Shown here: positions 6,053-33,583 of the stretch, in pieces
Layout of the letters: each line of letters starts with the position of its first letter
How positions within the stretch are numbered: the first letter of the stretch is position 1
DNA from: an uncultured Sphingomonadaceae bacterium
Lineage (GTDB): Bacteria > Pseudomonadota > Alphaproteobacteria > Sphingomonadales > Sphingomonadaceae
Assembly: GCA_947499255.1 (NCBI GenBank)
Contig: CANMNF010000002.1
Location: 260,430 to 324,429 of the forward strand
Reading direction: 5' to 3'
DNA: 64,000 nt
The notes under the pieces: model-generated
Told to the model about the DNA's origin: nothing
The model's database searches: none
What the model saw: the letters and a program-made list of their open reading frames with translations, nothing else
Position numbers and translations under genes: made by a program

Positions 6053-6067
6053 TGCCGCATTGCAGCA
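6053..6067 (+). promoter_or_regulatory. TGC-rich imperfect palindrome (PhaR-like box)
   Basis: TGCCGCATTGCAGCA, with arms TGCCGC and GCAGCA around ATT and one mismatch. It lies 12-26 bases before the chosen start of the beta-barrel gene, close to its ribosome binding site, where a bound regulator could block expression. It matches sites at 15300, 27273, 28230, 33569 and 59697. The regulator is inferred. Confidence 0.4.
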
Positions 6068-6078
6068 TGGGGAATACG

Positions 6079-7368
6079 ATGCGCGCCGTTTATAAGGCTA
6101 TAGGCCAAATTGCCGTTGCTCTTCCGGTGCTGTGTGCACCTACCGCGTTGATGGCGCAGGAAATTGGTGGTGCCAATTCCATCGTTATCAACCCGCAGCT
6201 TGATCGCAGTGATGCCGCAGGCGCCCGCAACGAGCCTGAGTTTGAGCCACAGCCATTGCGTGCCGGACCGTTCATTTTGCAACCATCCTTGTCGGTTGTG
6301 GGAGGATACAATTCCAACGTCCTGAATTCCGCTAACGAGCTTAGCGACGCGGTCCTGACAATTACGCCCCGGCTGACTGCGCGCGCCGATACACCGCTAC
6401 ATCTGTTTGAAGTTACTGCGACCGGATTCATCCGCCGCTTCGCCTCGTTTGAAACGGAAAATTCCGAAGAATTCAATGTTGCGAGCCGATCGCGTTACGA
6501 TTTCACTGAGGAAAGCTCGCTCTTCGCAAATGCCAGCTATTCGCAAAATATTGAACCGCGCAGCAGCTTTACCGCCAATCCCAATGCCGCTGAACCGGTA
6601 AGCTATACCAACACAGCTGGCCAGGTCGGTGCAACCATTGGCCTGGGCTCACTTGAATTGCGGCCTTCGGTTAGCCTTGCGACGCGCGATTATTCGACGC
6701 TTGACCTTATTGGGGGCGGCAGCGCTGATCTGAGCTTTCGCGATAGCCGCAGGCTTGGGGGCAGCCTGTCTGTGGGATACAGGGTTTCCCCGATGGTTTC
6801 GGTTTTTGCTGCCGGCAATGTGACCGATGTCGAAAGTCGCAATCCGCTGCCCGGATTGGACCGCGGCGCACAAGACCTATCGCTGGTTGGCGGTGTGCGC
6901 GGGGAATTGACACCTGTGCTTTCAGGCGAAGTTGCAGTGGGATATCGCAAACGTGAATATGACCTTGCATTGTTCCGCGATTTTGGTGGCCTGACTTACC
7001 GTGCAGACCTGCAATATTTTCCGACACAGCTTTTGACGATCCGCCTTCAGGCACAGCAAGTCTTCCAGAATAGCGGCAATGTGCAAGTGGCAGGAATTCT
7101 CTCCAATCGCTTCACCGTGACAGCTTATTATGACCCACTGCGCAATGTCCGCGTCTCGGCGCAGGCAGGGTATGAAATTAACGATTTTCGCGAAGCGGAT
7201 ACCGATGCCAGCCGTCCTTCTGTGCGCATAGCAGGCGAATATCGGTTCAATCCAAATGTCTCGGTAGGCGCTTATGCAGGCGTATTGCGCCAGGATGTTA
7301 GCGGTGTGCTGGCGTTGCAAGAGTTTACCTCTTTCAGCGCAGGATTTGGGGTTACGCTGACACCGTGA
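6079..7368 (+). CDS. Outer-membrane beta-barrel protein of EPS locus (BBP2-like)
   Basis: A 429-residue protein from ATG 6079, chosen because GGGGA lies eight bases upstream and a Sec signal peptide (about 1-27, ending LMAQ) starts exactly there. In-frame ATGs at 6052 and 6067 would only lengthen the leader. After a short linker the chain is an unbroken series of alternating polar/hydrophobic strands (VVGGYNSNVLN, LRPSVSLATRDYSTLD, VSVGAYAGVLRQDVSG), consistent with a beta-barrel of the putative beta-barrel porin 2 type. Similar proteins (e.g. GelF/SpsF-like) sit next to Wzc/Wza genes in sphingan-type clusters. It probably acts in outer-membrane passage or assembly of the polymer alongside the short Wza. 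Confidence 0.75.
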   Translation: MRAVYKAIGQIAVALPVLCAPTALMAQEIGGANSIVINPQLDRSDAAGARNEPEFEPQPLRAGPFILQPSLSVVGGYNSNVLNSANELSDAVLTITPRLTARADTPLHLFEVTATGFIRRFASFETENSEEFNVASRSRYDFTEESSLFANASYSQNIEPRSSFTANPNAAEPVSYTNTAGQVGATIGLGSLELRPSVSLATRDYSTLDLIGGGSADLSFRDSRRLGGSLSVGYRVSPMVSVFAAGNVTDVESRNPLPGLDRGAQDLSLVGGVRGELTPVLSGEVAVGYRKREYDLALFRDFGGLTYRADLQYFPTQLLTIRLQAQQVFQNSGNVQVAGILSNRFTVTAYYDPLRNVRVSAQAGYEINDFREADTDASRPSVRIAGEYRFNPNVSVGAYAGVLRQDVSGVLALQEFTSFSAGFGVTLTP

Positions 7369-7402
7369 CACAAGCGAAGATCTCTTTTGAGGAGTTGCAG
7401 CC

Positions 7403-9637
7403 GTGAACTTGCCTGATGTTTACGAAGATCGCCGCCGTGCCCCGCAAGTCGCGACTACGGAAGATCCCAGTTTCTTTCGTGAAAACGATGATGAGATCAC
7501 GTTTAGTTATTTGTTCGCAATGCTGCGTCGGCGCTTGCCGGTTATGTTGCTGACTGCAGCCTTGTGTTTCCTTCTAGGTGTGCTGCTCACCACAGCTTCG
7601 CCGCGTGTCTATAACGCTCAAGCCGATGTGGTCTTGATCACCAATCAGGCCGATCTGGTACCAGGTGATGCGGATTCCGATGGGCTTACCCGCATCCGCG
7701 CTGAAGATGTGGAGACCCAGCTTCAGCTGATCAGCTCGCGCGAAATGGCCGAACAGGTGCTGGATGACACCGGCCTTGCCAATGATGATGCCTTCCGCGC
7801 CGATGTCCTGCAGCCGCGTTCCACTATCGATAACATCCGCAGCGCTATCGGACTTGATCGCGATGTTCTGCTTTCACCTGATGATGTGAACCCTGATACG
7901 CTGCGCAATCGCTCGCTTGCTTATCTGATGAAAGGTCTGGAAGTTTCGCGGGTGGGAAATTCCTATACGCTGCGCATCAAAATGTCGGATTCTGTTCCCG
8001 ACCGTTCCGCCCAGATCGCCAACAGCTATGCCCGCCTTTACACCACTGACGATGCCCGCCAGCGGGCACAGCGCAATGCAACTGCAGCGCAGGTGCTTGG
8101 TGAAAGGTTGGAAGAACTGCGCGAACAGGCGAATGACGATTTTGCCGCCGTGCAAAGTTACCGCGTTAGCAACAATCTGCTCAGCGCTTCGGCCACGGGC
8201 CTTTCTGAACAGGAAGTCTCCACGCTCAATTCACAAATAGCTTCTGCCCGCGCAGAAGCTGCCGAGGCGGCTCAGGCGTTGGCAACTGCGCGCTCTCAAC
8301 TATCGGGCGGCGGCGCTGGCGAAGTGGGGCGCGGCACTGCATCTTCTGTGATCGCGTCGCTGCGTTCCCAACGTGCGCAGCTGACCACGCGTGAGGCGGA
8401 TCTGGCCCGGCGTTATCTCGACGGTCACCCTGAGCTCATCACGGTGCGCGAACAGATCGCTGGCATCGATCAACAAATCAACGCCGAAGTGGGCCGCGAA
8501 GTGCGCGCTTTGGAATCGCGCGCGCAAGCAACGCAGCAACGCCTCAATTCGCTGCTCAGCAGCCGTGGCGGCACACGTTCAACTTTGCGCGGTGACAACA
8601 TCGCCATGATCGAATTGGCTGACCTTGAACGGCAAGCCGATGCCTCGCAGGCGCAGTACCAGTCTTACTTGCAACGCTATAACGAAGTGCTCGCTGGATC
8701 CGGCACAGAACAGCCAAGCGCGCGCATGATCTCCTTTGCCAATGTGCCCGGATTGCCCTCTTCTCCCAACTGGCCGTTAATGTTGGCGCTGTCTCTCGTC
8801 GTTGGTGTTGGCTTGGGCGCTTTGCTGGCCATTTTAAGCGAAATTGCCTATCGCGGGATCACCACGCTTGATGATGTGGAAAGCCGCCTTGGCCTCAATG
8901 CTTTGGGCTTTGTGCCCGCCTATCAATCGGTTAAGCCGGCGGGCGACGATGCCCTTACAACCATCACCGAACACCCTGACGGGCCGTTTGCGGAAAGTTT
9001 GCGCAATATCCTTGTGTCCATTGGCCGCGCGACAACGGGCCGGTGCGCAGTAATCGCCATCACCTCCTCCATTCCCGGCGAAGGCAAGACCACGCTTTCC
9101 ACCTGCATGGCCAAGGCAATCGCAATGGCCAATCAAAGCGTCATCGTGGTGGATTGCGACATTATCCGTTCGCAATTGAGCCAGAAGTTCAAATTGAACA
9201 ATGGCGATGTTGGTCTGCATGAAGCTTTGGAAGAAGGCGGGGAAATCGCGCAATATCAAGATAGCGACACCGGCATGCACATCCTGCCGATCACCAAACC
9301 ATTTCGCAAAGGTGAGCGGCTGACGGAAAATGGCCGCTTGCACCGCGTTGTCTCGCAGCTGCGCGACAGGTATGATTTTGTGATCCTGGATTGTCCGCCA
9401 ATCCTGCCCATTGCAGAATCGCGCGAGATCGTGGCGATTGCTGATCATGTGGTGATGGCAGTTGCCTGGCGCAAAACGCTCGACAAAATCGTGAAATCGG
9501 CCATCCGCCAATTGCCAATGCGCGTTCTGGCGAAAACCGGCGTCGCGCTCAACATGGTCGATATGCGCAAACAAGTGCGCTTTGGCGGCAATGACGCAGC
9601 CAGCTTTTATAAGCATTACGAAGCGTATTACGGCTAA
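7403..9637 (+). CDS. Wzz-domain polysaccharide co-polymerase / BY-kinase
   Basis: A fused co-polymerase and autokinase of 744 residues. The first membrane helix is about 45-66, followed by a Wzz domain and long periplasmic coiled coils with the GNVR region. The second helix is about 455-478, and the cytoplasmic kinase fills 530-744. It has the BY-kinase Walker A SSIPGEGKTT (near 557), Walker A' VIVVDCDI and Walker B FVILDCPP. The C-terminal FYKHYEAYYG gives a cluster of four tyrosines for autophosphorylation. Such proteins control chain length and export of Wzx/Wzy polymers through a cycle of phosphorylation. Its stop overlaps the next glycosyltransferase start (TAATG), so they share an operon. 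In some Sphingomonas sphingan clusters these two functions are split into separate proteins. Confidence 0.93.
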   Translation: MNLPDVYEDRRRAPQVATTEDPSFFRENDDEITFSYLFAMLRRRLPVMLLTAALCFLLGVLLTTASPRVYNAQADVVLITNQADLVPGDADSDGLTRIRAEDVETQLQLISSREMAEQVLDDTGLANDDAFRADVLQPRSTIDNIRSAIGLDRDVLLSPDDVNPDTLRNRSLAYLMKGLEVSRVGNSYTLRIKMSDSVPDRSAQIANSYARLYTTDDARQRAQRNATAAQVLGERLEELREQANDDFAAVQSYRVSNNLLSASATGLSEQEVSTLNSQIASARAEAAEAAQALATARSQLSGGGAGEVGRGTASSVIASLRSQRAQLTTREADLARRYLDGHPELITVREQIAGIDQQINAEVGREVRALESRAQATQQRLNSLLSSRGGTRSTLRGDNIAMIELADLERQADASQAQYQSYLQRYNEVLAGSGTEQPSARMISFANVPGLPSSPNWPLMLALSLVVGVGLGALLAILSEIAYRGITTLDDVESRLGLNALGFVPAYQSVKPAGDDALTTITEHPDGPFAESLRNILVSIGRATTGRCAVIAITSSIPGEGKTTLSTCMAKAIAMANQSVIVVDCDIIRSQLSQKFKLNNGDVGLHEALEEGGEIAQYQDSDTGMHILPITKPFRKGERLTENGRLHRVVSQLRDRYDFVILDCPPILPIAESREIVAIADHVVMAVAWRKTLDKIVKSAIRQLPMRVLAKTGVALNMVDMRKQVRFGGNDAASFYKHYEAYYG

Positions 9638-10761: not shown

Positions 10762-10807
10762 TTCGCAAGCTTACCTTGCACCAGGACGAACACAAAAGGT
10801 GACGATT

Positions 10808-11356
10808 ATGGTATTTCGGGCATTGATCGCAGCATTCACGCTGGCCCTTGCGGCCTGCACCACAACGCCAACGGCCACTCTGCCTTCGATCGATCAGGTC
10901 GAATATCGCATTGGCGCGGGCGACAAGCTGAACCTCACCGTGTTCCGCGAAGATTCGCTTTCCGGCGAATTCCAAGTCAACGAAGCCGGGCTTTTGAGCC
11001 TGCCTTTGGTTGGCGATATTCAAGCTTCAGGCAAAACCTTGTCGCAATTTCGCGATGATCTAACGACGCTGCTTGGCAGCGAGTTTGTGCGCGATCCACG
11101 CGTTACCGTAAACGTCGCCAGCTACCGTCCCGTTTATGTGCTGGGCGAAGTCTCAAACCCGGGCGAATATGCGTATACAGAGCGGATGACTGTTTACGCG
11201 CTCGTCGCGAAGGCAGGCGGCTTTACGTACCGTGCGAACCAGAACGTTGCCTTCATCCGGCATGAAAACGAAGCGCAGGAACGCGCTTATTCGCTCACCA
11301 GTGGCGGTGCGATAATGCCCGGTGACACGATCCGGTTTGAACAGCGATACTTCTGA
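10808..11356 (+). CDS. Short Wza-type polysaccharide export lipoprotein
   Basis: An outer-membrane export protein of 182 residues from ATG 10808. AAAAGGTGA sits just upstream, so ATG 10808 is preferred over an in-frame GTG three codons earlier. The leader ends in the lipobox LAAC, giving a lipidated Cys at residue 17. The mature part has the polysaccharide-export domain (YRIGAGDKLNLTVFRE, DIQASGKTLSQFRDDL, DPRVTVNV) and one SLBB domain (YVLGEVSNPGEY). It lacks the second SLBB and the C-terminal membrane helix of E. coli Wza, as is common in GumB-like exporters of alphaproteobacteria. The beta-barrel protein upstream may supply the missing outer-membrane part. Confidence 0.9.
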   Translation: MVFRALIAAFTLALAACTTTPTATLPSIDQVEYRIGAGDKLNLTVFREDSLSGEFQVNEAGLLSLPLVGDIQASGKTLSQFRDDLTTLLGSEFVRDPRVTVNVASYRPVYVLGEVSNPGEYAYTERMTVYALVAKAGGFTYRANQNVAFIRHENEAQERAYSLTSGGAIMPGDTIRFEQRYF

Positions 11357-11396
11357 TCCCAGCGGCCATACGCCAAGCCTGAAGGGGCTTCGATCC

Positions 11397-14268: not shown

Positions 14269-15234
14269 TCATTCCGCAGCCCCTGTGGTATCGATCCGAG
14301 GACCCCAGGCATCAATTTTGCGCCCGATCAGCTCTTCAAAGGCAATCCGGCGCGGCGCCAGATGGCGGGCGAGATATTCGCGCGCGCCTGTTTCATCGAC
14401 TTCCCTTTTGTCAAAAGTGGTCGTTGAGGCATCACGCAAGCCATCCACCATGTCCTGCGGCAAATATTTGCGCGCAAAGGCCCACAAGCCTGAATTGCGA
14501 AATTTGCTCACCAAAGGAAAGCGTTCCTTGCGGGTGGTTGGCGGAGATTTGTGGCGTTCTGTAATTTGCGAATCGCTGTATTCGTAATCCTCAAGCCCCA
14601 GCCATCTGATCACATCGGCCAACGTTTCCCGGCGATGGCTGCGCAAATCTTCGGCAACCACGATCTTGATTCGCGAACGATCAAAATAACGCAGATATTG
14701 CTCAAGCTGCAGCGCATAATCAGACGTATCGCGGTAAAGCGCATTGGCGCGCATCGCTTGATCGATGGGCAATGGTTCCTGAAATTCCTTGAAGCGCTGC
14801 CAATAATGACCAATTGCGCGCGCCACAGGTTCGCGAACTGTATAAATGATGCGGGCATCCGGGCAGGCATTGGCGATGCGTGCAGCAACGCCGCTGCGAT
14901 GTGGGGCTTGCGAGTAATATACGCTGCCTTCGCCGCGATACAGCGCCTCTTCCCCGCCTTCCCAAAGATCGAGATAATCGTTCCAGCGATGCGAGCACGC
15001 CTGCCGCGCCATAATCGGCCAGGCTTCTTCGAGCTCTTTGCGTTCAATAAAAAAGCACGGTTCTTTCTCACGGCTCATACATATCTGCGGATGCGGGCTG
15101 AGATACGCATGTAGAGCGCTAGAGCCTGATTTGGACGCGCCGATCACAAACAGATTGGGCATCAGACGAAGTTTTGAAGGGTCAGACGGGGGCGGCGGGA
15201 ATCCGCGCAGCGCCTGTGCATCGTCAACGGTCAT
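14269..15234 (-). CDS. Sulfotransferase domain protein
   Basis: A 321-residue protein from the ATG at 15234, which has TTGGAG about seven bases upstream; the frame runs open for 30 further codons. It shows the two PAPS-binding motifs of the heparan/steroid sulfotransferase fold: 5'-phosphosulfate loop FVIGASKSGSSALHAYL near residue 27 and the 3'-phosphate motif IIYTVREPVARAIGHYW near 115. It should transfer sulfate from PAPS to a hydroxyl of the EPS repeat unit or its precursor. A TGC-rich box and three copies of TGCACAA lie upstream. PAPS would come from cysD/cysNC at the end of the locus. Confidence 0.85.
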   Translation of the reverse strand: MTVDDAQALRGFPPPPSDPSKLRLMPNLFVIGASKSGSSALHAYLSPHPQICMSREKEPCFFIERKELEEAWPIMARQACSHRWNDYLDLWEGGEEALYRGEGSVYYSQAPHRSGVAARIANACPDARIIYTVREPVARAIGHYWQRFKEFQEPLPIDQAMRANALYRDTSDYALQLEQYLRYFDRSRIKIVVAEDLRSHRRETLADVIRWLGLEDYEYSDSQITERHKSPPTTRKERFPLVSKFRNSGLWAFARKYLPQDMVDGLRDASTTTFDKREVDETGAREYLARHLAPRRIAFEELIGRKIDAWGPRIDTTGAAE

Positions 15235-15299: not shown

Positions 15300-15314
15300 T
15301 GCCGCATTGCACAA
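15300..15314 (-). promoter_or_regulatory. TGC-rich box upstream of sulfotransferase
   Basis: On the plus strand TGCCGCATTGCACAA, 66-80 bases before the sulfotransferase start. It is nearly identical to the cysD-upstream site. The heptamer TGCACAA occurs three times here, from 15264, 15290 and 15308. Regulatory use is inferred from recurrence only. Confidence 0.35.
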
Positions 15315-15345: not shown

Positions 15346-17784
15346 CTAGAAGATGAAATCGCCTGCGTTGAGATCGCCTTCGGAGATGCTCATCAGTGTT
15401 ATCTTGTTGTTCTCAATCGTGATCGTGGCGGATTTCTTGCCATAGGCGATGTCGAGATCTGAGAAGTTTTCGATATCGTCAAAAGCAGAGAGATCAATAT
15501 GATCTCCGCGCGCAAAATCCATCACCATGTCGCGACCAAAATCGCCTTCGAAATGGAAGATGTCTCGCCCATCGCCGCCTGTCAGGCGATCATTGCCTTC
15601 ACCGCCATCGAGCCAGTCATTGCCTTTGCCGCCATCAAGCCTGTCTTTCCCGCTGCCACTTAGCAAAGTATCAGTCCCGCCATTGCCGGTCAGCCTGATA
15701 TTGGTGGTAGCAGAGCCGGCATCAAAGCGATCATCGCCGTCATTGCCTATAGCAATTTCGATATTGGCGGCGGCAATGTCAAAACTTACACCATCCGATC
15801 CGCTGACAATCAATTTATCCCGGCCAGCGCCGCCGTCGACCGACACATCATCGCCATCCACATACAGCCGATCATTGCCTTTGCCGCCGATCAGCGTGTC
15901 TGCGCCTTCTTCGCCATAGAGCCGATCTTTGCCCGATCCGCCCAAAATCACATCATCTTGTTCTGTCCCGACCAGTTTTAGATTGGACCTGGCGTCAGAG
16001 CGGTCAATGACGTTGACCTCTCGGGGTGATGGCGCCTCTGGCTCTTGAACAGGATCAGGATCAGGATGGCTGACCGGCACATCAGCAGGTCCATCGGCAA
16101 GTCCATTATCTGGCCCATCTACCGGCTTGGATACGTCCACATTCTCATCGATGATCTGGATGTGGCGGGATGTGACATCGCCGCTTGCATTGTTGCGGGA
16201 ATAGATCACGAAATCGAGTGTATCGCCAGCGGTAAGGGTGATGCCAGACAAGTTCAGATCAAACTCATGGCCATTCTTTTTATTGTAGATGACCTGCGTA
16301 AAGATCGCCTCGTCATTGTGCTCAATGGTCAACAACACGCCATCTCTGGTGTGATTGGCCACGTCCCAATTGCCTTTGATCGTGACCACGCTATCTGTCT
16401 CAGCGGTAAAGCGTTCCACCACCGAAAACTCTGAACGCGGATCATCATTGTTCTTCTTGAAATCCGCCGGAGTGACCCTTGTTGCGCTGACGTGAAACGG
16501 GCGCAGCGCGCCGGAGCCTAAATATGGCGTCCAAGCTTCCCCACCGCCAAGACCGCCGCCCATCGTATACAAAGCGCGCGCATCACCAAGGCCGTTCTCT
16601 GCAAAGTAGGACCAAGGGCCTTCAAAGCCATCGGTGCTGCCTTTGGTGTTGGTGAGATCAAAATCGTACAGACTATCTGCCAAAACAGCGCTTGCGGAAA
16701 AAGTGATGCTTTGGGCATCAATCGTATCACCGCTGCGCAACAAAACCGGCTGATCTTCGGAGATGCTATCAAACTTGCGAATGCGATCACCGGACAGGTC
16801 CCAAGCGGTGACGCCATCGGCAAGATCAACGTCGCGCTCCAATCCCCAGACGATCGCAGCATTGGGGCCAAACGCATACATGTGCACATATTGATCAACA
16901 TCGAGGCGTGTCACTTGCGTGTCATCAGCCAGCAGACCTTCGAGCAGGGCAAACGTTTCGCCAGCGGGCGTCGCACTGTCGGACGATCGCGCCCACAATT
17001 CCATATTGGGAAAGAAGCTTTGCGTGGCAAAAGCATACCAATTGGCTGATTCCACCCCTGCGGCGGCCATCACGCTGACCATTTTGGCGAGATAATTTGG
17101 CGCTTCATCCAGACTATCGAAATTGCTGCCAAACTCGGTCACATGGATGGCGATATCCTCACCCACCACACCGCGCAGCAGATCGATTTGCTGGCTAAAT
17201 TCTTCAGGGCGCGTTGTGTAAGGATGGATGGAGATACCATCGGCATGGTCAAGAGCGCCGCTGCCTTCGAGTTGAGCGAAGTAATCGACCGGGATCGAAT
17301 GCGTTGATGCGCCGATAATCGTGACATCGATGCCAGCTTTATCGACGGCCTTGTCAACCGCTTCGATCAGATTGGTGTAAAACTCATCCCGCTCCGAACG
17401 CGGGGCATTGGCGACTTTGCCGGTGACAAAATCATTGCCGTTAAATTCATTGCCGATCTCAATTGCCGCAATGGCGGGATATTCTTTCAATACCGCGACT
17501 ACATAATCGGCAAAGGCATCCAGCCCTTTATCCGAATAGATGGTCTGACCTTTATCATACAGTTTGTTGATCGGATTAAAAGCCAACACAACATCAAGAC
17601 CAGCATCCAAAGCTTCTTCGAGCCAGCCTGCGCCTCTTACGTCAAAATCGTACTCACCGCGCTTGGTTTCAATCCGGCCCCATGGAATGGAATCGCGGAT
17701 CATATCCGTGCCAAGACTTTGAACATCCTCCAAAAGATTGGTGTTCCAGCCTTGGCTAAAATGCGTCTGCGTACTCAATTTCAT
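15346..17784 (-). CDS. RTX-tailed glycoside hydrolase, likely type I secreted
   Basis: An 812-residue modular enzyme. Residues 1-300 form a (beta/alpha)8 glycosidase of clan GH-A type (GH5/GH39-like): acid/base Glu113 in EIGNEFNGN, HPYTT near 187-191 and nucleophile Glu217 in HVTEFGS. A beta-sandwich-like region follows (about 400-560), then a Pro/Asp-rich linker. Two blocks of calcium-binding RTX nonapeptides (GGxGxDxLx; about 608-650 and 705-750) come next, with a C-terminal FARGDHIDLSAFDD-type export region. There is no N-terminal signal peptide. RTX tails without Sec signals are exported by PrtD-type systems, and one is encoded in this locus. By analogy with PslG or rhizobial Ply enzymes it may trim the EPS outside the cell. 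Its substrate is not known. Confidence 0.85.
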   Translation of the reverse strand: MKLSTQTHFSQGWNTNLLEDVQSLGTDMIRDSIPWGRIETKRGEYDFDVRGAGWLEEALDAGLDVVLAFNPINKLYDKGQTIYSDKGLDAFADYVVAVLKEYPAIAAIEIGNEFNGNDFVTGKVANAPRSERDEFYTNLIEAVDKAVDKAGIDVTIIGASTHSIPVDYFAQLEGSGALDHADGISIHPYTTRPEEFSQQIDLLRGVVGEDIAIHVTEFGSNFDSLDEAPNYLAKMVSVMAAAGVESANWYAFATQSFFPNMELWARSSDSATPAGETFALLEGLLADDTQVTRLDVDQYVHMYAFGPNAAIVWGLERDVDLADGVTAWDLSGDRIRKFDSISEDQPVLLRSGDTIDAQSITFSASAVLADSLYDFDLTNTKGSTDGFEGPWSYFAENGLGDARALYTMGGGLGGGEAWTPYLGSGALRPFHVSATRVTPADFKKNNDDPRSEFSVVERFTAETDSVVTIKGNWDVANHTRDGVLLTIEHNDEAIFTQVIYNKKNGHEFDLNLSGITLTAGDTLDFVIYSRNNASGDVTSRHIQIIDENVDVSKPVDGPDNGLADGPADVPVSHPDPDPVQEPEAPSPREVNVIDRSDARSNLKLVGTEQDDVILGGSGKDRLYGEEGADTLIGGKGNDRLYVDGDDVSVDGGAGRDKLIVSGSDGVSFDIAAANIEIAIGNDGDDRFDAGSATTNIRLTGNGGTDTLLSGSGKDRLDGGKGNDWLDGGEGNDRLTGGDGRDIFHFEGDFGRDMVMDFARGDHIDLSAFDDIENFSDLDIAYGKKSATITIENNKITLMSISEGDLNAGDFIF

Positions 17785-17995: not shown

Positions 17996-19378
17996 GTGAG
18001 GGTGCACGCAGATATGGCCGATGGGGAAACGCCTGCAACTGCGCGTGATGTCATCGTGCTTGGGGCAGGTATTGGTGGGCTTGCCGCAGCAGATCATCTT
18101 AACCGCGCCGGGTACCGTGTTACCGTGCTGGAACGCAGCAATCGGTGCGGCGGCGCGCACAAATCGTACAATATCGGCCCATATACGTTTGATGTCGGCA
18201 GCATTTTTTACGAACCGCGCGCGCAGATTTTCAATATGGCTCAAGATCTGCGCGCGCTGTGTCCGGCGGTGATGCGGCGTCAGCGCCGGGTGGCGCAAGA
18301 TGGCCGCTTGTTGCATTACCCCGTAGAACCGCGCGATATGCTGCGCAGCAATCCGTGGCGTGCAGCGCTTGGCGTTGCTGATATGCTTTCAAACCAGTTG
18401 GTTTTGCAGCGCGATGGGACGCTTGAGACTATCTGCCGCAAAAGGTTGGGCGATACGTTCTTCGATAATACGGGCCTGCGCGCTTACATCACGCGGTTCC
18501 ACCATGCAGCGCCTGCTGAAATCGATGAGCAGTTCTATTTCCAGCGCATGAAGTTCATCGAAAAGGCCACCCGCCTCAAATCGATCATGGCACGCGGCGC
18601 GCGCAGCGTATTTACCAAAAAAGCGGTGAATGCGCGAATGCTCAAACCGCTGCATATCCGCCCGCAATCAGGGTTCGATACGCTGTTTGCCCCCATCCAG
18701 CAAAGGCTTGAAAAAGCAGGCGTCCGGTTTGTCTTTGGACAGGATGTTCAGCGCGTTTCGCAAACGAGTGAGGGGTTTGATATCGAAACCGATGCAGGCC
18801 GGCATCACACTGACAGTTTGGTCAGCACCATTCCCCTTACCCAGCTGTACCGGGCCATGTTCGGCAAATACCCCGCCCTCACCCTGCTCGATATGACGAC
18901 GCTATTCGTTTCAGCACAGCGGCTTGATCCGCAAAGCGGGAATGTTCTATTTAACTTTCACAATGATGGGTTGTGGAAACGCGCAACCGTGTATTCCCAG
19001 CTTTATCCCGGCGCCGATACAGACCGGGCCTTTATGGGCGTAGAAGTCACCATTCCTCATGGCGGCACGCACGATCCGGAACGCACTTTTGCCGACTTTC
19101 GCGATCATCTTACCGGGCTTGGTATTGCAAGCGATATCAAGCTGGAAGGCAGCGCGCTGGTTGAAGGATGTTATCCTTTTCTGGCTAAGGGTACTGACGC
19201 GTTGCTTGCCGCTGCATTAAAACGCATAAGCGCAGCAGGAGTGATCGTTGCGGGCAGACAAGGACGCTTTGAATATCTGCCGACTTCATCGCGCGTCATA
19301 ACCCGCGTGGGGGAGGAATTGGAGAGGGCCACCACATTGCAAATGCTAAGGGCCGATCCGCATGTCGCCAGCCATTGA
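17996..19378 (+). CDS. FAD-dependent oxidoreductase (protoporphyrinogen oxidase / UGM-like)
   Basis: A 460-residue flavoprotein with an N-terminal Rossmann dinucleotide site VIVLGAGIGGLAAADHL followed by VLERSNRCGG, the arrangement of amine-oxidase/UDP-galactopyranose-mutase-like enzymes. The start is a GTG; GTG 18002 (AGGA eight bases upstream) and ATG 18014 are equally possible. Its 3' end overlaps the pyruvyl transferase gene by 17 bases. Similar proteins are found in capsule and EPS loci, where they may modify a nucleotide sugar or a lipid-linked sugar. It lacks enough recognisable active-site detail to name a reaction. Confidence 0.72.
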   Translation: MRVHADMADGETPATARDVIVLGAGIGGLAAADHLNRAGYRVTVLERSNRCGGAHKSYNIGPYTFDVGSIFYEPRAQIFNMAQDLRALCPAVMRRQRRVAQDGRLLHYPVEPRDMLRSNPWRAALGVADMLSNQLVLQRDGTLETICRKRLGDTFFDNTGLRAYITRFHHAAPAEIDEQFYFQRMKFIEKATRLKSIMARGARSVFTKKAVNARMLKPLHIRPQSGFDTLFAPIQQRLEKAGVRFVFGQDVQRVSQTSEGFDIETDAGRHHTDSLVSTIPLTQLYRAMFGKYPALTLLDMTTLFVSAQRLDPQSGNVLFNFHNDGLWKRATVYSQLYPGADTDRAFMGVEVTIPHGGTHDPERTFADFRDHLTGLGIASDIKLEGSALVEGCYPFLAKGTDALLAAALKRISAAGVIVAGRQGRFEYLPTSSRVITRVGEELERATTLQMLRADPHVASH

Positions 19379-22994: not shown

Positions 22995-23567
22995 ATGGCA
23001 ACGACTATTGGCACAGCAGGCCCAGACAGAATTAAAGGCACGGATAATGCAGATATCATCTTCTCCGGTGGTGCAAGGGATGTAGTTCGGGGCGGCGAAG
23101 GTGATGATTTCATCGATGGCGGCGCCAACCGTGATCGCCTGTATGGCGATGAAGGCGACGACATGATCAATGGCGGAGGCTCCAACGATAAGCTGTTTGG
23201 TGGTACCGGCGATGATACGCTTTTTGGCGGTGGCCAGAATGATCGTGTGTACGGCGGTTCTGGCGATGACAAAATCATCGGCGGCGACGATAATGACGTT
23301 CTCTATGGTGACAGCCCATCTGACAGTAACGACAGCGAAGGTGGTAATGACGAATTCTACTTCGACAGTGATGACGGTAGAGACCGGGTCTTCGACTTTG
23401 AAACTGGTGTCGACACCGTCGTGCTGACAGATGGTGGCAGCTGGACACTAACCAATGATGGTAACAATTCGTACCTGACCTATGGTTCGACCAAGGTGAC
23501 TTTCTTCGACGAAATCCTCGACTCCAGCGATATTACTACAGGCACCATGCCTGAGTTCTCGCTCTAA
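22995..23567 (+). CDS. Small RTX calcium-binding repeat protein
   Basis: A 190-residue protein from ATG 22995, preceded by GGGGA; an upstream in-frame start at 22974 is less likely. After a short head (MATTIGTAGPDRIKGTDNAD) about 110 residues are consecutive RTX nonapeptides of the form GGxGDDxLx (e.g. YGDEGDDMINGGGSNDKL). The acidic C-terminal region contains FDFETGVDTVVLTDGG, the usual end of the beta-roll, and a hydrophobic FDEILDSSDI segment. There is no Sec signal, so type I export is expected. With no catalytic domain it may be a matrix or surface protein, or a calcium-dependent EPS-binding factor like rhizobial Rap proteins. A strong terminator follows at once. Confidence 0.85.
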   Translation: MATTIGTAGPDRIKGTDNADIIFSGGARDVVRGGEGDDFIDGGANRDRLYGDEGDDMINGGGSNDKLFGGTGDDTLFGGGQNDRVYGGSGDDKIIGGDDNDVLYGDSPSDSNDSEGGNDEFYFDSDDGRDRVFDFETGVDTVVLTDGGSWTLTNDGNNSYLTYGSTKVTFFDEILDSSDITTGTMPEFSL

Positions 23568-25688: not shown

Positions 25689-27164
25689 TTACCCACGAAA
25701 AACGTCGAGCGTGAACACGCGCAAAACATAGCCCGCGACCAGGAACAAAGGGATAAGTACCCCGCCAAGCACGAACCCGGCAATCAATTGCACAAGATCG
25801 TCGGCTGCAACCAGCTCTTTCAACGTGTCATATCCCCAGAACAGGCAAAGGCCAAAGACCGCAGCAACCGCCAAAGCCACCAAATAATCGCGCATCATTC
25901 CAGCAACAGGCAGCCCGGCTTTCCATTTGATCATTGTAAACGCCCACATTGATGCCCCCAAAATCACGACGACCTGCCCCCATGATACCGCAGCATAGCC
26001 AAAAGGCAGCGTGGCGAGAATGACCATCAGGGAGCAGACCGCTGAAACCGCGTTAAACGTTAAAATCCAGCCCGTTTGCCCGGTGGCAGAGAATAACGGT
26101 TCCATGATGGTATTGCCGGTGCCAATGGCCGCACGCGTCGCCAAAGCATAAGCGATCACCGCTGCCCCAAGATACGCTTCATCGAAGAAAAGCTTCAGAA
26201 TGTCTTCGGCAAAGACGATTACAATCGCGCCCATCATGCCGGACAACAATGCGATGGCTCCTATAAAACGGCGAGCGGGCCGTTCAAATTGGCGATCCGT
26301 ACGGGCGGCAACGCCAAGGTGGCTAATGGCAAAACTGCTCATCGGTTGCACCAGAACATCCGTTGCACTGTTGGCGAAGCGGCTGCCAAATCGGTACAAG
26401 CCCACTTCGGCGGCTGTGTAATACAAGCCCAGCAATATCTCTGCGGCGTATTTGGAGAGAAACGCCAGAAAGCGCGATCCGTACAGCCCCCCGGAATAAG
26501 CAACGGCGCGTTTGGCCAACGCTTTACTAAATGCAAATCCAGGAAACCGCGCGCCGGCAATAAGATAGAAAATCAGACCCGCCCCCACGCGGATAAAGCG
26601 ATAGGCAACCAGTGCGAACAACGATTGCCACATCACCAGCAGAATCACGCCGCCCACAAGAGCGGTGAGGTTTTGGAAGAACATCACCACAAAGTTCACA
26701 TTGGTCGCCTCGCGTCGCAGCAAAGCGGCAGAGGCCCATGCCCCAAAACTTGCAAAAGGTTGCGAAGCGGCCAGCAGTATCAAAACCAGCGCTAGATCTG
26801 TCGCGTCATAAAGCCACTCCAACGGAAACGCTGCCAGGGCCAGCACAATCGAGGCCGCGGTTGCAAGGCCGGTGATTAGCCAGAAACTGGTGCCCAGAAC
26901 TTCGCGATCGTCCTCGGGCGAGGTGATAATGAAATTGTAAAAGCCGCTATAAGTAAGCGTTTGAATCAAAGTGAGAAAGATTATGCCCAGAGCATAAACA
27001 CCATATTCCGCCGGCATCAGGAAGGCGGCAGCCAACAGCGTGATAACCAAAGTCGAAATTTGTTGTAGAGAGCGCGCCACGATGGCAAATATTGCCATGC
27101 CGCTGCGCCGTGACACGCCGCCGACAGAACTCTTCAAACCAGCTAGATTTTTCAGCTTAGCCAC
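25689..27164 (-). CDS. Oligosaccharide flippase family protein (Wzx-like)
   Basis: A 491-residue membrane protein with about twelve to fourteen hydrophobic segments, as in MOP/PST-family flippases. Segments such as FLMPAEYGVYALGIIFLT near the N-terminus and YYTAAEVGLYRFGSRFAN in the middle match the Polysacc_synt/Wzx pattern (A-E-Y/V-G-x-Y). It should move lipid-linked repeat units across the inner membrane for the Wzy polymerase. It is the only flippase in the locus. The gap to the sulfotransferase-like gene downstream is about 100 bases, so it may head that operon. Confidence 0.86.
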   Translation of the reverse strand: MAKLKNLAGLKSSVGGVSRRSGMAIFAIVARSLQQISTLVITLLAAAFLMPAEYGVYALGIIFLTLIQTLTYSGFYNFIITSPEDDREVLGTSFWLITGLATAASIVLALAAFPLEWLYDATDLALVLILLAASQPFASFGAWASAALLRREATNVNFVVMFFQNLTALVGGVILLVMWQSLFALVAYRFIRVGAGLIFYLIAGARFPGFAFSKALAKRAVAYSGGLYGSRFLAFLSKYAAEILLGLYYTAAEVGLYRFGSRFANSATDVLVQPMSSFAISHLGVAARTDRQFERPARRFIGAIALLSGMMGAIVIVFAEDILKLFFDEAYLGAAVIAYALATRAAIGTGNTIMEPLFSATGQTGWILTFNAVSAVCSLMVILATLPFGYAAVSWGQVVVILGASMWAFTMIKWKAGLPVAGMMRDYLVALAVAAVFGLCLFWGYDTLKELVAADDLVQLIAGFVLGGVLIPLFLVAGYVLRVFTLDVFRG

Positions 27165-27272: not shown

Positions 27273-27287
27273 TGTTGCACCGCAGCA
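27273..27287 (+). promoter_or_regulatory. TGC-rich palindromic box upstream of sulfotransferase-like gene
   Basis: TGTTGCACCGCAGCA, with arms TGTTGC and GCAGCA around ACC. It differs by one base from the perfect copy at 28230. It sits about 85 bases before the start of the next gene, in the divergent region shared with the flippase gene. Confidence 0.45.
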
Positions 27288-27358: not shown

Positions 27359-28153
27359 ATGAGATTGCAAATTCGCGACTGGGCAAAAGGTATCGCGGGC
27401 CACCTTCTGGCACGCGACAAAGAACGCTTCGCCTTTCGCAATTGCATTTTCATCATTGCGCATATGCGCTGCGGCTCAACCGCGCTGTCCAATATCCTGT
27501 GTTCGCGCGATGATGTGACCGGGTATGGAGAGGCGCATATCCGGTATTCCAACCGCGAAGCAATCGGCCAGCTCGCTTTGAACATGCGCAAGCGTGGCGG
27601 ATGGTCTTCAGATGCGCCACACTTCTTCGACAAGATCCTGCATTCACGTCATGATTTGCGCGCCCCCGATGCGTTTTTCACAGCCCGCGCGATTTTCATG
27701 CTGCGCGAGCCTGAACCTGCCATCCGATCCATCTGCAAGCTATATCGTGATCTGGGGCGCGCAGAATATGCCACGCATGAACGGGCCGCTGCCTATTATA
27801 TTGAACGCGTCAATGCGATGGCCATCCTGTGGCAAAAATTTGCACCAGAACAGCGCTTTGGCCTTACGCATGGTGGGCTTCTTGGCGATCCTGATGCAAT
27901 GCTGGCCAAAATGTCGCAGGCGCTGCGCTTCGATCCGCCATTGCGCAACCATTATGAAAGCCTTGCCGCATCACGCAAAGGAGGCGGCGGTGATCCGATG
28001 GTGAGCGGGAAACACAATAGGATTGAGCCAGGACTGCTCAAACCAGCGGGCGAACTGGCGAGTCTTGAACTTGGCGAAGGCCAGGCTGCGGCGGCGCAAA
28101 CGGCCTACGACTCCATGGCAAATTTGATAGCCGCACAAGCCAACACGGGCTGA
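27359..28153 (+). CDS. Sulfotransferase-like P-loop protein (Stf0-like)
   Basis: A 264-residue protein, starting at the ATG that ends the sequence TTGTCGGGCATG (AAGG nine bases upstream); a TTG three codons earlier is an alternative. It has FIIAHMRCGSTALSNIL near residue 35, a phosphosulfate-binding loop of RCGST type, then GYGEAHIRYSN, and the 3'-phosphate motif IFMLREPEPAIRSICKLY near 120. The order and spacing fit the sulfotransferase fold and recall Stf0-type enzymes. It is the third sulfotransferase-like gene of the locus and is not close in sequence to the other two. PAPS-binding boxes flank both its sides at DNA level only in the sense that TGC-rich regulatory boxes occur up- and downstream. 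Confidence 0.72.
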   Translation: MRLQIRDWAKGIAGHLLARDKERFAFRNCIFIIAHMRCGSTALSNILCSRDDVTGYGEAHIRYSNREAIGQLALNMRKRGGWSSDAPHFFDKILHSRHDLRAPDAFFTARAIFMLREPEPAIRSICKLYRDLGRAEYATHERAAAYYIERVNAMAILWQKFAPEQRFGLTHGGLLGDPDAMLAKMSQALRFDPPLRNHYESLAASRKGGGGDPMVSGKHNRIEPGLLKPAGELASLELGEGQAAAAQTAYDSMANLIAAQANTG

Positions 28154-28170
28154 TCGCATGCTTTAACGTC

Positions 28171-28202: not shown

Positions 28203-28229
28203 CCCGAATTTCGCACACTCTATCGCCCA

Positions 28230-28244
28230 TGCTGCACCGCAGCA
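28230..28244 (+). promoter_or_regulatory. Perfect TGC-rich palindrome (CTGC-N3-GCAG, PhaR-like)
   Basis: TGCTGCACCGCAGCA has perfect six-base arms around ACC and contains CTGC-N3-GCAG, the consensus reported for PhaR of Rhodobacter and Paracoccus. It lies 217-231 bases before the ExoY-type gene. The following AATGT is shared with the phaZ-upstream copy at 59697. Confidence 0.5.
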
Positions 28245-28460: not shown

Positions 28461-29153
28461 ATGAACGCGCAAATCGCTATTCCAAGTGAGGGAGATGGTC
28501 GCTCAGCGCCATTAACGCTCACACCCCCTGCGGTCGCACCAACATCGGCGGCGCTTTGGCGCGCGTTTGATATCGTGGTGGCTGCGGGCGTTCTGATTGT
28601 GGCCTTGCCCTTTTTGATGATCCTGGCTGCGGTGATGTATCTCAGCGATCCGGGCCCGCTATTCTTCGTTCACCGCCGGCTTGGTTTTCAGGGTCGGTTT
28701 TTTGGCTGCATGAAATTCCGCTCGATGAAAATGAACGGCGATCAGGTTCTTCACGAACATTTGGCGAAATCGCCTGAGGCGCGCCGGGAATGGGAAGAAA
28801 CCCACAAACTTAAAGACGATCCTCGCGTGACAGCGATCGGCGCCATCGTGCGCAAGCTAAGCCTGGATGAATTCCCGCAGCTTATCAACGTCTTGCGCGG
28901 TGAGATGAGCATCGTTGGCCCACGTCCGATCGTGGAAGCTGAAGTGGTGCGTTATGGCCGCTTTTTTGAACATTACTGCGCGGTAAAGCCCGGCCTAACC
29001 GGCCTGTGGCAGATCAGCGGGCGGAACGACACGACCTATCGGGAGCGGATTGAACTCGATGTAAGTTACGTGGCACGCAAAAGCCTGGCGCTTGATACAT
29101 GGCTGTTGATCAAGACGGTGCCAGCGGTATTGTTCGCTCGCGGATCTTACTAA
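28461..29153 (+). CDS. Sugar transferase, ExoY-type initiating phosphoglycosyltransferase
   Basis: A 230-residue monotopic phosphoglycosyltransferase (PF02397). One hydrophobic re-entrant segment (about 38-62) precedes the catalytic domain: GPLFFVHRRLGFQGRFFG, KFRSMKMNGD, the acidic DDPRVTAIGAIVRKLSLDEF (the Asp-Glu catalytic dyad region) and GEMSIVGPRP. The C-terminal part has VKPGLTGLWQISGRND. It transfers a sugar phosphate to undecaprenyl phosphate, the first step of repeat-unit synthesis. It is the short ExoY form rather than the long WbaP form with four extra membrane helices. GGGGA precedes the start. Confidence 0.93.
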   Translation: MNAQIAIPSEGDGRSAPLTLTPPAVAPTSAALWRAFDIVVAAGVLIVALPFLMILAAVMYLSDPGPLFFVHRRLGFQGRFFGCMKFRSMKMNGDQVLHEHLAKSPEARREWEETHKLKDDPRVTAIGAIVRKLSLDEFPQLINVLRGEMSIVGPRPIVEAEVVRYGRFFEHYCAVKPGLTGLWQISGRNDTTYRERIELDVSYVARKSLALDTWLLIKTVPAVLFARGSY

Positions 29154-29166
29154 GCTTTTCAGGCTG

Positions 29167-29662: not shown

Positions 29663-30571
29663 TCAAAGTCTCTCGATTCGTTCCGGCGTCAAACGACCGC
29701 GCAACAAATCAAACAACCCGATCCAATTTCCTTTGGCGCGCCCGACCCGGTCAACCCACGGCTCAGGCGACATAGATTTGAGGTGATTCGCAACGAAATT
29801 GCGCACCATTAACCTGGTCGCAAAACGCAAAGTCATCGTGCCTTTGTCCACCAGATAGGCTGGATTGATAATCTGGGAATAGCCGAGCCTGACACCTGGC
29901 GTGCGGCCATACTTTACGCCTTGATGCACGCCCGCAAATGCAAAGGTGCGCACAACACGTCCGCGATCCTGCAAGCTTGCGGCAAAATCGATATCTTCCT
30001 GCCAGGCATACAGCGGCAAACGTTCGTCAAACCGCGTATCGCCAATCGCGCTGCTGCGGTACGCCATGTTGCAACCATACAGGCCTCCCAAAGGGGCCAC
30101 GACACAATTGGGCGTAAAATCTTTCGCCTCAAACTTTTCAAGAATGTCGAGCGCTTCATCATAAGAGATGCCCGCGGTGTTGATGCCATCTGCCACCACA
30201 TTGCCGGTGGCGCCCACAACATCGGGATGCGTGCGGAAGAACTGCTCAATCGCGGCGAGACTTCCTTTACCTGGTACAAAATCGTCATCGTAAAATACAA
30301 TGACATCGTAGGCATCGCCCAAAGTGTTGAGCGCATTGTTGCGTTGCTTGGTCAGGCCTTTGGGCCCGGTGATCACTTTGCAGTTTTGACCGGGCGCGAA
30401 ATCATCTGGAGTGTCCGATTCGTTCACTACAGAAAACAGCAGAAAATCGGGCTGGCGCGTTTGCCGCTCCATCAAGGTGCACATCTGCGTTATCAGTTCT
30501 GGCCGCCCGAGGCTGGCGATGACGACAGCGACGCTCAAAGGACGCTCATCCACCATGAGATCCATGCTCAT
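29663..30571 (-). CDS. Glycosyltransferase family 2 protein
   Basis: A GT-A transferase of 302 residues from the ATG at 30571, which has GGGA about eight bases upstream; the frame is open 22 codons further to 30637. It begins LSVAVVIASLGRPELITQM, the family 2 nucleotide-binding strand, then has YDVIVFYDDDFVPG with the DXD metal site and a later WQEDIDFAASLQDRGR (ED acidic motif of the catalytic base region). It probably acts in EPS repeat-unit assembly. It follows cysNC on the same strand, so it may be transcribed together with the sulfate-activation genes. Confidence 0.85.
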   Translation of the reverse strand: MSMDLMVDERPLSVAVVIASLGRPELITQMCTLMERQTRQPDFLLFSVVNESDTPDDFAPGQNCKVITGPKGLTKQRNNALNTLGDAYDVIVFYDDDFVPGKGSLAAIEQFFRTHPDVVGATGNVVADGINTAGISYDEALDILEKFEAKDFTPNCVVAPLGGLYGCNMAYRSSAIGDTRFDERLPLYAWQEDIDFAASLQDRGRVVRTFAFAGVHQGVKYGRTPGVRLGYSQIINPAYLVDKGTMTLRFATRLMVRNFVANHLKSMSPEPWVDRVGRAKGNWIGLFDLLRGRLTPERIERL

Positions 30572-30722
30572 CGCGTGTTCCCAAATATGGGCCAAGGGAT
30601 CACCTGCACTTGCCATTGCCCTGTCTGCTAGGCGCATTTTGCGCGCGAAAAAAGTCAGTTGGTTGTTTTTGTCCCATTCCCACCCGGATTTGTTGGTCCG
30701 AACAGGCCTTGAATTTGCGTCA

Positions 30723-32651
30723 TCACTTCAACGGCATAATCGCATCGACGATAAATTTGGCCGCTTCCTGTGGGCTCATCTCTACCGTATTGACGCGGAT
30801 TTCCGCATTTTCTGGCTCTTCATACGGGCTATCGATGCCGGTGAAGTTCTTCAACTCACCATCGCGCGCCTTTTTATACAGGCCTTTCACATCGCGCGCT
30901 TCGGCAACTTCGAGCGGCGTATCGACAAACACCTCGATAAATTCGGTATCTGGCAACATCGCGCGCACCATTTGCCGCTCTGCCCGGAAAGGCGAGATAA
31001 AGGCGGTGAGGACAATCAGGCCCGCATCCGTCATTAGCTTGGCAACTTCGCCAATGCGGCGGATATTCTCCACCCGATCTGCATCGGTGAAGCCCAGATC
31101 CTTGTTCAAACCGTGACGCACATTGTCCCCATCGAGCAGGAATGTGTGGCGGTTCATCAGGTTCAAGCGTTTCTCCACCTCATTGGCAATGGTCGATTTG
31201 CCTGAGCCAGAAAGCCCGGTAAACCACAGCACTTTGGGCGTTTGGTTCTTCAGATTGGCGTGCTCTTCACGCGTTACATCGGTGGCCTGCCAATGCACAT
31301 TTTGTGCGCGGCGCAGGCTGAAATGCAGCATGCCAGCGGCAACCGTTGCGTTGGTCACTTTATCGATCAGAATAAAGCCACCCATCGCGCGGCTATCTTC
31401 ATAGGCTTCAAAAGCGATCGGGCGGTCCGTAGTCAGCTCAGCCACACCGATTGAGTTCAGCTCCAGCGTTTTTGCTGCCAGCTGATCCATCGTGTTGATG
31501 TTGACTTCATATTTCGGCTGCGAAACCGTGGCTGAAACCATCTGCGCGCCGATTTTCAGGAAATAGGCACGGCCCGGCAGCAGCGCTTCATCATCCATCC
31601 ACACGATGGTGGATTCAAATTGATCGGCCGCTTCGGGCGGATCATCAGACGTCGCGATTACATCACCGCGCGAACAATCAATCTCATCTGTCAGCGTGAG
31701 GGTGACCGATTGGCCAGCAACTGCTTCGTCAAGATCGCCATCAATCGTGACGATTGAGCGCACATTGCTGGTCTTGCCCGATGGCAAAACGCGGATCGCA
31801 TCGCCCGGTTTCACCGTGCCACTGGCGATCAGACCGGAAAAACCGCGGAAATCCAGATTGGGCCGATTGACCCATTGCACGGGCATACGGAACGGCTTGC
31901 TCGCCGCCAGATCGCTGCGCAGTTCCACGGTTTCAAGATGGTCCATCAGGCTGGGGCCATCATACCACGGCGTCGTTTCAGACGGCGCGGTGGTGACATT
32001 GTCGCCCTTGAAGCCCGAAATGGGGATCGCGGTGAAAGCCTCAATCCCGATTTCTTCGGCGAACTCTTTATACTCGCTGACGATTGCATCGAATTTGGCC
32101 TGATCGTAATCGACCAGATCCATCTTGTTCACCGCCAGCACGATATTTTTGATGCCCAGCAGATTGCACAAATAAGAATGCCGCCGCGTCTGCACCAGCA
32201 CGCCTTTGCGCGCATCAACCAGAATAATCGCCAGATCAGCGGTGGAGGCACCGGTTACCATATTGCGCGTATATTGTTCATGCCCCGGACAATCCGCGAC
32301 GATGAATTTGCGCTTTTCCGTTGCGAAGAAGCGATAGGCAACGTCAATCGTAATGCCCTGTTCGCGTTCTGCTGCAAGCCCATCAACCAGCAGCGCGAAA
32401 TCAATTTCTTCTCCCTGCGTGCCAACTTTCTTGCTATCGCTTTCCAGCGCATCGAGCTGATCTTCAAAGATCATTTTGGAATCATAAAGCAGGCGGCCAA
32501 TCAGCGTTGATTTGCCATCGTCCACGCTGCCGCAAGTGATAAAGCGCAGCATCGTTTTGTTCTGATGCTGATCGAGATATGCATCGATATCTTGTGCGAT
32601 CAGATCATCGACTTTAAAGCTGCTTTCGCTTTGAGTGCCAATATCGGTCAT
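30723..32651 (-). CDS. cysNC: Bifunctional sulfate adenylyltransferase subunit 1 / APS kinase
   Basis: A 642-residue fusion. The N-terminal CysN part is an EF-Tu-like GTPase with G1 [10 protein letters not shown] (residues 40-49), [17 protein letters not shown] (G3) and [10 protein letters not shown] (G4), followed by beta-barrel domains. The C-terminal CysC part has P-loop GLSGSGKST near 480, [15 protein letters not shown] and [13 protein letters not shown]. With CysD it makes APS and then PAPS, the sulfate donor for sulfotransferases. Its ATG overlaps the cysD stop (TGATG). No reductive genes (cysH, cysI) are near, so the pair appears dedicated to sulfation. Confidence 0.95.
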
Positions 32652-33553
32652 CAGAAATAGCCCTCCTGCTTTTTATCTTCCATCGACGCGGATTCCCCTT
32701 TGTCGATGGCGCGGCCCTGGCGTTCTGAGCCAGTCGCGAGCAGCATTTCCTGAATAATCTTGGACATATCGGTGGCCTCGCTCTCCACCGCGCCGGTCAG
32801 CGGGTAACACCCCAGCGTGCGGAAACGGACAGAGCGTTCGACCGCCTCTTCGCCTTTCTCAAAGCGGAAGCGTTCATCATCGATCACAAGCAATTGACCA
32901 TCGCGCTCCAGCGTGGGGCGCGGGCTGGAGAAATAAAGCGGCACAATCTTGATGTTCTCCACCATGATATATTGCCAGATATCCAGTTCGGTCCAATTGG
33001 AGATCGGAAAAACACGGATGCTTTCACCTTTGGCCTTTTTCGCATTGTAGATGTTCCACAATTCAGGCCGCTGGTTTTTCGGGTCCCAGCGATGCGAGGC
33101 GCTGCGGAAGCTGAAAATGCGTTCCTTGGCGCGGGCCTTTTCCTCATCACGGCGGCCGCCACCAAAGGCAGCGTCAAAACCATGCTTGGTCAATGCAGCT
33201 TTCAGCGGATCGGTCAGCAAAGTTTGTGAATAGAGGGCAGAGCCTGTGTCAAACGGGTTGATACCGCGTTCGTTGGCTTCTTCGGCCTGCGCCACGATCA
33301 ATTCCAGATTATATTCTTTCACCGTCCAATCGCGATGATCGAGCAGCGCCTGAAAGTCCCACCCGCTGGCCACATGCAGCATCGGGAATGGCGGCGGCGA
33401 GGGATAGAACGCCTTGCGCGCCAGATGCAGCATTACCGAGCTGTCTTTGCCGACCGAATACAACATCACCGGATTCGTGGCTTCAGCCACAACTTCGCGC
33501 ATGATATGAATGCTCTCGGCTTCGAGCCGTTCGAGGTGAGTCATCGTTTTCAT
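32651..33553 (-). CDS. cysD: Sulfate adenylyltransferase subunit 2
   Basis: A 300-residue ATP-pyrophosphatase-fold enzyme starting at ATG 33553 or, equally, ATG 33544 ([18 protein letters not shown], which aligns with the usual CysD N-terminus). It shows the PP-loop-like [17 protein letters not shown], then [30 protein letters not shown] and [15 protein letters not shown]. It forms APS from sulfate and ATP with the CysN GTPase. Translation is coupled to cysNC. A TGC-rich box lies 16-30 bases before the start. It heads the cysD-cysNC(-GT2) unit at the end of the EPS locus. Confidence 0.95.
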
Positions 33554-33568
33554 ATCCGTCGCTTTAAT

Positions 33569-33583
33569 TGTTGCACTGCACAA
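33569..33583 (-). promoter_or_regulatory. TGC-rich box upstream of cysD
   Basis: Plus strand TGTTGCACTGCACAA; minus strand TTGTGCAGTGCAACA. It aligns with the box at 15300 at 12 of 15 positions. The location just before cysD would let one regulator set PAPS supply together with sulfotransferase expression. Confidence 0.4.

Follow-up and report, generated by a model that had tools for sequence, protein, structure and literature searches.

The locus and its boxes

The window—the whole stretch of 64,000 nucleotides analysed here, from an uncultured Sphingomonadaceae bacterium—carries genes for the synthesis, export and probable sulfation of an exopolysaccharide (EPS), and between these genes lie short TGC-rich palindromes. 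A sequence-only reading of this DNA had named five such 15-base boxes, at 6053, 15300, 27273, 28230 and 33569, and had proposed that they are sites of the regulator PhaR. All five are exact to the letter. Two further boxes (5964 and 59697) and the gene for a polyhydroxybutyrate (PHB) depolymerase had been missed and are added here. In the following list, ranks and scores refer to the Sinorhizobium meliloti matrix described below.

5964..5978, + strand: PhaR-type box TTTTGCAATGCACAC; intergenic, score 16.2
6053..6067, + strand: PhaR-type box TGCCGCATTGCAGCA; rank 5; before the BBP2_2 beta-barrel gene, abutting the ATG at 6067
15300..15314, + strand: PhaR-type box TGCCGCATTGCACAA; rank 4; 65 bp upstream of the sulfotransferase gene 14269-15234 (- strand)
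27273..27287, + strand: PhaR-type box TGTTGCACCGCAGCA; rank 3; between the divergent flippase-like (-) and sulfotransferase-family (+) genes
28230..28244, + strand: PhaR-type box TGCTGCACCGCAGCA; rank 2; the ATG of the ExoY-type gene (28461) follows at 216 bp
33569..33583, + strand: PhaR-type box TGTTGCACTGCACAA; rank 1; 15 bp upstream of cysD
59697..59711, + strand: degenerate PhaR-type box TGCCGCGCCGCAGCA; score 11.4; upstream of the PHB depolymerase gene

The genes that matter for the argument are these.

6067..7368, + strand: outer-membrane beta-barrel gene (PF10082, BBP2_2); the start may be the ATG at 6079
7403..9637, + strand: Wzz/Wzc-type exopolysaccharide transport protein; best NCBIfam match, below cut-off
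10799..11356, + strand: Poly_export/SLBB outer-membrane polysaccharide export protein, by domain match
14269..15234, - strand: sulfotransferase (PF13469, PF00685), by domain matches
25689..27098, - strand: polysaccharide flippase-like gene (PF13440), divergent from the gene at 27359
27359..28153, + strand: sulfotransferase-family gene (PF13469), by domain match
28461..29153, + strand: ExoY-type initiating sugar transferase (PF02397); the gene caller favoured a start at 28575
30723..32651, - strand: CysNC, the sulfate adenylyltransferase GTPase subunit fused to adenosine phosphosulfate (APS) kinase (GTP_EFTU and APS_kinase domains), for the supply of phosphoadenosine phosphosulfate (PAPS)
32651..33553, - strand: CysD, the sulfate adenylyltransferase small subunit; PF01507 (PAPS_reduct) domain, named by its position beside cysNC
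59870..61045, + strand: intracellular PHB depolymerase PhaZ (TIGR01849 and PF06850, over cut-off), a known type of PhaR target

The box at 5964, the sixth of its kind, precedes the one at 6053 by 89 bp, and both stand in front of the beta-barrel gene; cysNC follows downstream of cysD in the same direction. The five boxes had been described as intergenic or just before a start, and indeed all of them fall between called genes when a codon-usage gene caller with chosen starts is used. This status depends on the starts: the longest open reading frames (ATG 6052, TTG 15324, TTG 33589) would extend across three of the boxes (6053, 15300 and 33569). In the case of cysD, homologues favour the later start, as their matches begin at query residues 1–5, mostly at an ATG. 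Two details of the sequence-only reading need correction—the 6053 box touches the probable translation start (ATG 6067 or 6079) or overlaps with it, and the boxes at 27273 and 33569 sit between divergent genes. A promoter-consensus scan around 28230 was uninformative.

Comparison with chance

Chance matches in TGC-rich DNA would be the simplest explanation of such boxes, and the sequence-only reading had itself asked for chance to be excluded. Its loose definitions leave some room for this: with up to two mismatches, its consensus gives 21 matches in the window vs 13.8 ± 3.6 in shuffles (3 of 100 shuffles reach 21), a mild enrichment, and CTGC-N3-GCAG alone gives six vs 3.1 expected, which is not significant (8 of 100 shuffles reach six). 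Among the five boxes, only the one at 28230 carries an exact CTGC-N3-GCAG, and this motif—without enrichment in the window—was dropped as a stand-alone definition. As a PhaR consensus, the exact CTGC-N3-GCAG comes from the sequence-only reading and was not met in the literature passages used; those of PMC10888616 give TGC-rich or GC-N3-GC sites.

A sharper description comes from a symmetric matrix. It was built from 16 sites of S. meliloti whose fragments are marked 'Efficient' in PhaR (AniA) gel shifts (Table 3, among the parts of PMC12542648 used); not included are the four exoH candidates, which share one fragment, and the acyP site, a reverse duplicate of rpoE8. This test is independent of the genome under study and non-circular. 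With it, the five boxes take ranks 1–5 of the 63,986 window positions, and six positions score at least 16.2—the five boxes and 5964. In 200 first-order Markov simulations, sites at this level numbered 0.64 on average and three at most, and none of 1000 column-permuted matrices yielded six or more.

Genome-wide, the consensus with at most one mismatch produces 65 strand hits (62 unique sites) vs five for the reversed-pattern control. Besides the five boxes, this leaves 57 unique sites, 23 intergenic and 34 inside called genes, against an intergenic background of 11.5% (250,631 positions of the own genome; binomial p 2.5e-8). The comparison of intergenic with coding density had been set beforehand as a refuting test, and the two densities are not equal. 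Hence, since none of the 200 simulations and none of the 1000 permuted matrices reaches six, and since the intergenic enrichment holds outside the five boxes, chance is rejected; the positional conservation described below contradicts it as well, and we regard its probability as negligible.

Assignment to PhaR

A profile search finds one PHB_acc match in the genome (G000 C1:702314-702433), and the protein carries both PF07879 (PHB_acc_N, the DNA-binding domain) and PF05233 (PHB_acc). A search by sequence for a solved PhaR structure found none. The operator core given for S. meliloti PhaR in the available parts of PMC12542648, YGCRNYGCR, is present by inspection in all five boxes. According to the same passages, S. 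meliloti PhaR binds phaZ and the promoters of exoY, exoH and exoL, lowers exopolysaccharide I (EPSI) on TY medium, represses phasin, EPS and Entner–Doudoroff (ED) pathway genes, and is titrated by PHB. The effect of the PhaR homologue AniA on EPS in Sinorhizobium, named in the sequence-only reading, is thereby borne out, as far as these passages go.

Relatives were scanned at a threshold of 14 bits with the S. meliloti matrix; the counts include the window genome's own locus for phasin, phaZ, exoY and cysD. Upstream of phasin, 23 of 24 loci (all 24 scanned) bear a box of at least 14 bits, and within the stretch scanned 13 of the 24 show paired boxes 47–48 bp apart. In the own genome, two strong boxes stand in tandem between phaC and phasin, at a distance of 47 bp (L054 1454-1515). 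The pair 5964/6053 of the window is spaced by 89 bp vs the 47–48 bp of the phasin loci. For the PHB depolymerase (a match in 50 of 61 genomes), a box precedes the gene in 20 of 30 loci, all 30 scanned; the strong boxes of these 20 relatives stand at -140 to -226, and the own 59697 box at -173. For zwf, 26 loci were scanned (fragments L200, L202 and L203 left out; 26 of 31 genomes), and 16 bear a box, or 16 of 19 within the genus. No reversed control reaches 14 bits in the phasin, zwf, SulP or phaZ sets.

The match to gel-shifted S. meliloti fragments, the retention of the motif at phasin, phaZ and zwf in relatives and the single PhaR gene all agree with the proposal that the boxes are PhaR sites. 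On these sequence grounds, the assignment is well supported.

A proposed model of PhaR control

We put the probability at roughly 85% that the boxes are PhaR (AniA) operators through which PHB-titrated repression would act on the export/polymerization, sulfotransferase, ExoY-type and cysD-cysNC units together with carbon genes. The observations behind this are the boxes themselves, their similarity to PhaR sites in the literature, a gene for PhaR and the conservation at standard PhaR targets. According to the model, free PhaR would bind TGYYGCANYGCARCA-type palindromes in this organism when PHB is scarce. Bound PhaR would then repress the export/polymerization, sulfotransferase, ExoY-type and cysD-cysNC units, along with phasin, zwf and other carbon genes. 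As PHB accumulates, its granules would titrate PhaR away, and polysaccharide synthesis, sulfation—provided that the sulfotransferases act on the polysaccharide—and PAPS supply would be derepressed together. That repression would last until PHB accumulates is expected because of the analogy with S. meliloti PhaR, as described in parts of PMC12542648.

Conservation at the genes of the window

The proposed targets within the window show a less even conservation than the standard PhaR targets. The sequence-only reading had suggested a test of conservation upstream of orthologous genes, and at exoY and cysD a box is found in a minority of the loci. For exoY, which has a match in 55 of 61 genomes, the 12 best-matching of 30 loci were scanned, and four, the own locus included, bear a box; the homologues with a box are those of G263, G264 and G018 (3 of 11). 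For cysD, with a match in 28 of 31 genomes, 29 sampled loci were scanned (partial gene L095 left out); five of them, including the own locus, reach 14 bits with the S. meliloti matrix, and none of the controls does. A matrix made from 21 sites of the own genome, at a threshold of 15 bits, gives six of 29, as the cysD box of G256 (13.8 with the S. meliloti matrix) passes. In a second set—the best 80 of 559 named cysD relatives—five loci bear a box, all of them among the 29 closest (identity of 83% or more; for the most part Erythrobacter and Porphyrobacter). These named relatives suggest that the organism itself is an Erythrobacter-type sphingomonad.

In the five named homologues, the cysD box always stands at -30 to -32, between -35-like and -10-like sequences (read by eye, with no formal alignment). 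Such a placement would be in keeping with repression by blockage of RNA polymerase. In G263, the stretch of the window from the M24 peptidase gene (33758) to 47629 has its homologues in unchanged order, and a 21.2-bit box precedes cysD there. The own cysD (32651-33553, compared with L072 and L257-L285) is 82–88% identical to that of G002—another family—and to named Erythrobacter, and about 66–74% identical to those of sampled genomes of the same genus; G253 has two cysD copies and a box before only one. This pattern may be read as a sign of gene exchange or paralogy.

The polysaccharide locus of a related species, G018 (L211, L212), contains eight boxes of at least 16 bits in about 40 kb, all intergenic. 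Among others, they precede several glycosyltransferase genes, acyltransferase genes and, in one case, a nitrite-reductase-type gene. Around the exoY homologues of G262 and G269, no box reaches 13 bits. The window is therefore not alone in having PhaR boxes in an EPS locus, yet such boxes are not a general feature either. A pattern for the Wzz/Wzc protein matched 63 stretches, and none of them encoded a relative.

Several of these results weigh against the model. At the own phaZ, the two boxes score 11.4 and 13.6 and, thus, fall under the 14-bit threshold. Outside the genus, zwf bears a box in none of seven loci. The exoY box is missing in eight of 12 loci, and the gene caller places that of G263 inside the 5' end of the gene. 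The cysD box is missing in 24 of 29 sampled loci with the S. meliloti matrix, in 23 of 29 with the own-genome matrix and in 75 of the 80 named ones. The 13 homologues of the beta-barrel gene, all distant (24–29% identity, starts estimated as 150 bases before the match), show no box. Finally, the density of the motif across the order follows the presence of PhaR only modestly: among 61 of 247 genomes, sampled outside the window's own family, the median is 7.4 per Mb in 33 PF05233-positive vs 5.7 in 28 negative genomes (ten of the negatives by elimination; p 0.006, uncorrected for relatedness). Without genus g48, the values are 7.2 vs 4.2 per Mb (26 positive, 20 negative), and within g48 the PF05233-negative members have, if anything, slightly higher motif counts. 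The relation between PF05233 and total motif counts is weak, as many of the matches counted over whole genomes lie in coding sequence; in g48, which was searched by PF05233 and not by PF07879, PhaR may also be too divergent for the 40-residue PF05233 model.

The failure of the motif count to separate PF05233-positive from PF05233-negative members of g48 would be expected if another transcription factor with a preference for TGC palindromes bound the boxes. The match to published PhaR sites speaks against such a factor, as does conservation that is strongest at the phasin and PHB depolymerase genes, and we consider it very improbable.

Sulfation or general carbon flux

The sequence-only reading had envisaged one regulon for polymer synthesis, sulfation and PAPS supply. 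Conservation at exoY and cysD is patchy, further boxes stand at sulfate-related genes elsewhere in the genome, and the distant homologues of the beta-barrel gene lack the box. One of the further boxes stands before a CysQ-like phosphatase gene (best NCBIfam match CysQ, below cut-off), another before a SulP transporter gene (a partial gene, below cut-off). A SulP protein may have another anion than sulfate as its substrate. In relatives, a SulP box of at least 14 bits is found in 15 of 24 loci (24 of 30 scanned; L251-L256, at no more than 33% identity, left out), and in 14 of 17 loci of the same genus, including the own, it lies at about -78 to -88 or at -44/-45 (L037 1501-1515, L227-L243). CysH (L060) had been a candidate target and was dropped, as its box lies 3' of the gene. 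From these sequence data, the link to sulfation is plausible and would be partly lineage-specific.

The boxes may also be real PhaR operators and still form no dedicated regulon for polymer sulfation. PhaR would then be a broad regulator of carbon flux, the sulfotransferases would act elsewhere—for example on carotenoids—and the cysD box would serve general sulfur assimilation. The other box-adjacent genes of the genome are diverse enough for this: zwf, pgi, AhpC, ATP synthase delta, a manA-like gene (match below cut-off), and FtsH and Kup, both named by eye from the N-terminal sequence only. Moreover, according to parts of PMC6627997, carotenoid sulfates are produced by Erythrobacter species, and a sulfotransferase-like activity has been seen in extracts of E. 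flavus. The genome has only one cysD match, so cysD probably also serves assimilation. Yet the neighbours of both sulfotransferase genes are flippase, glycosyltransferase, ExoY-type and export genes, and each of the two has a box of its own. No carotenoid gene was recognized in the scanned part of the window genes, although 18014-19378 is an amine-oxidase-family gene. On balance, a broad carbon-flux role with sulfotransferases acting elsewhere appears unlikely to us, if by no means far-fetched. As a separate observation, the polysaccharide locus also encodes two RTX calcium-binding repeat proteins (window 15346-17784 and 22995-23567).

PhaR operators that do include the sulfation genes would allow for a more far-reaching possibility, which we put forward tentatively and at slightly less than even odds. 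In Erythrobacter-type bacteria, PhaR might be the switch of a complete storage-to-coat programme, with sulfated EPS as an overflow product gated by the PHB content. Polysaccharide initiation and export, the two sulfotransferases, cysD-cysNC, SulP uptake of sulfate or another anion, and recycling of phosphoadenosine phosphate (PAP) by the CysQ-like enzyme would then be derepressed together. Such a bacterium may tie carbon storage—bioplastic granules sensed by PhaR—to the production of its coat. This points to a way in which the costly activation of sulfate could be adjusted to a cell's carbon surplus.

Comparison with known systems

The nearest known systems are the PhaR regulons of other Alphaproteobacteria. 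In Bradyrhizobium diazoefficiens (PMC10888616), and for the Paracoccus/Rhodobacter PhaR box cited there, TGC-rich or GC-N3-GC sites are likewise described, and PhaR is a pleiotropic regulator. Unlike here, the B. diazoefficiens motif of 12 bp is less sharply defined, and the passages of PMC10888616 at hand name no sulfation gene. A literature search by title, which covered the sulfotransferase literature partly and is weak evidence of absence, met no work on PhaR in Erythrobacter for this subject and none on PhaR with exopolysaccharide sulfation.

The likeness to the PhaR/AniA regulon of S. meliloti is closer. As far as the parts of PMC12542648 show, both share the YGCRNYGCR core and the targets phasin, PHB depolymerase and zwf, as well as EPS genes such as exoY. 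For that organism, control of EPS by PhaR has already been published. Even a sulfate-activating protein responds there: NodP (sulfate adenylyltransferase subunit 2) rises without PhaR, by +4.34 log2 in phbC phaR vs phbC at low phosphate, and was not detected in TY. In contrast to S. meliloti as described in these parts, boxes stand here before sulfotransferase genes, cysD itself and the CysQ-like and SulP genes, in a different alphaproteobacterial order and a different EPS cluster. Hereby, the PhaR/PHB regulon would be extended to an Erythrobacter-type sphingomonad with a concrete and testable list of operators, and the coupling of PhaR to sulfotransferases, cysD and a CysQ-like gene is apparently its new part.

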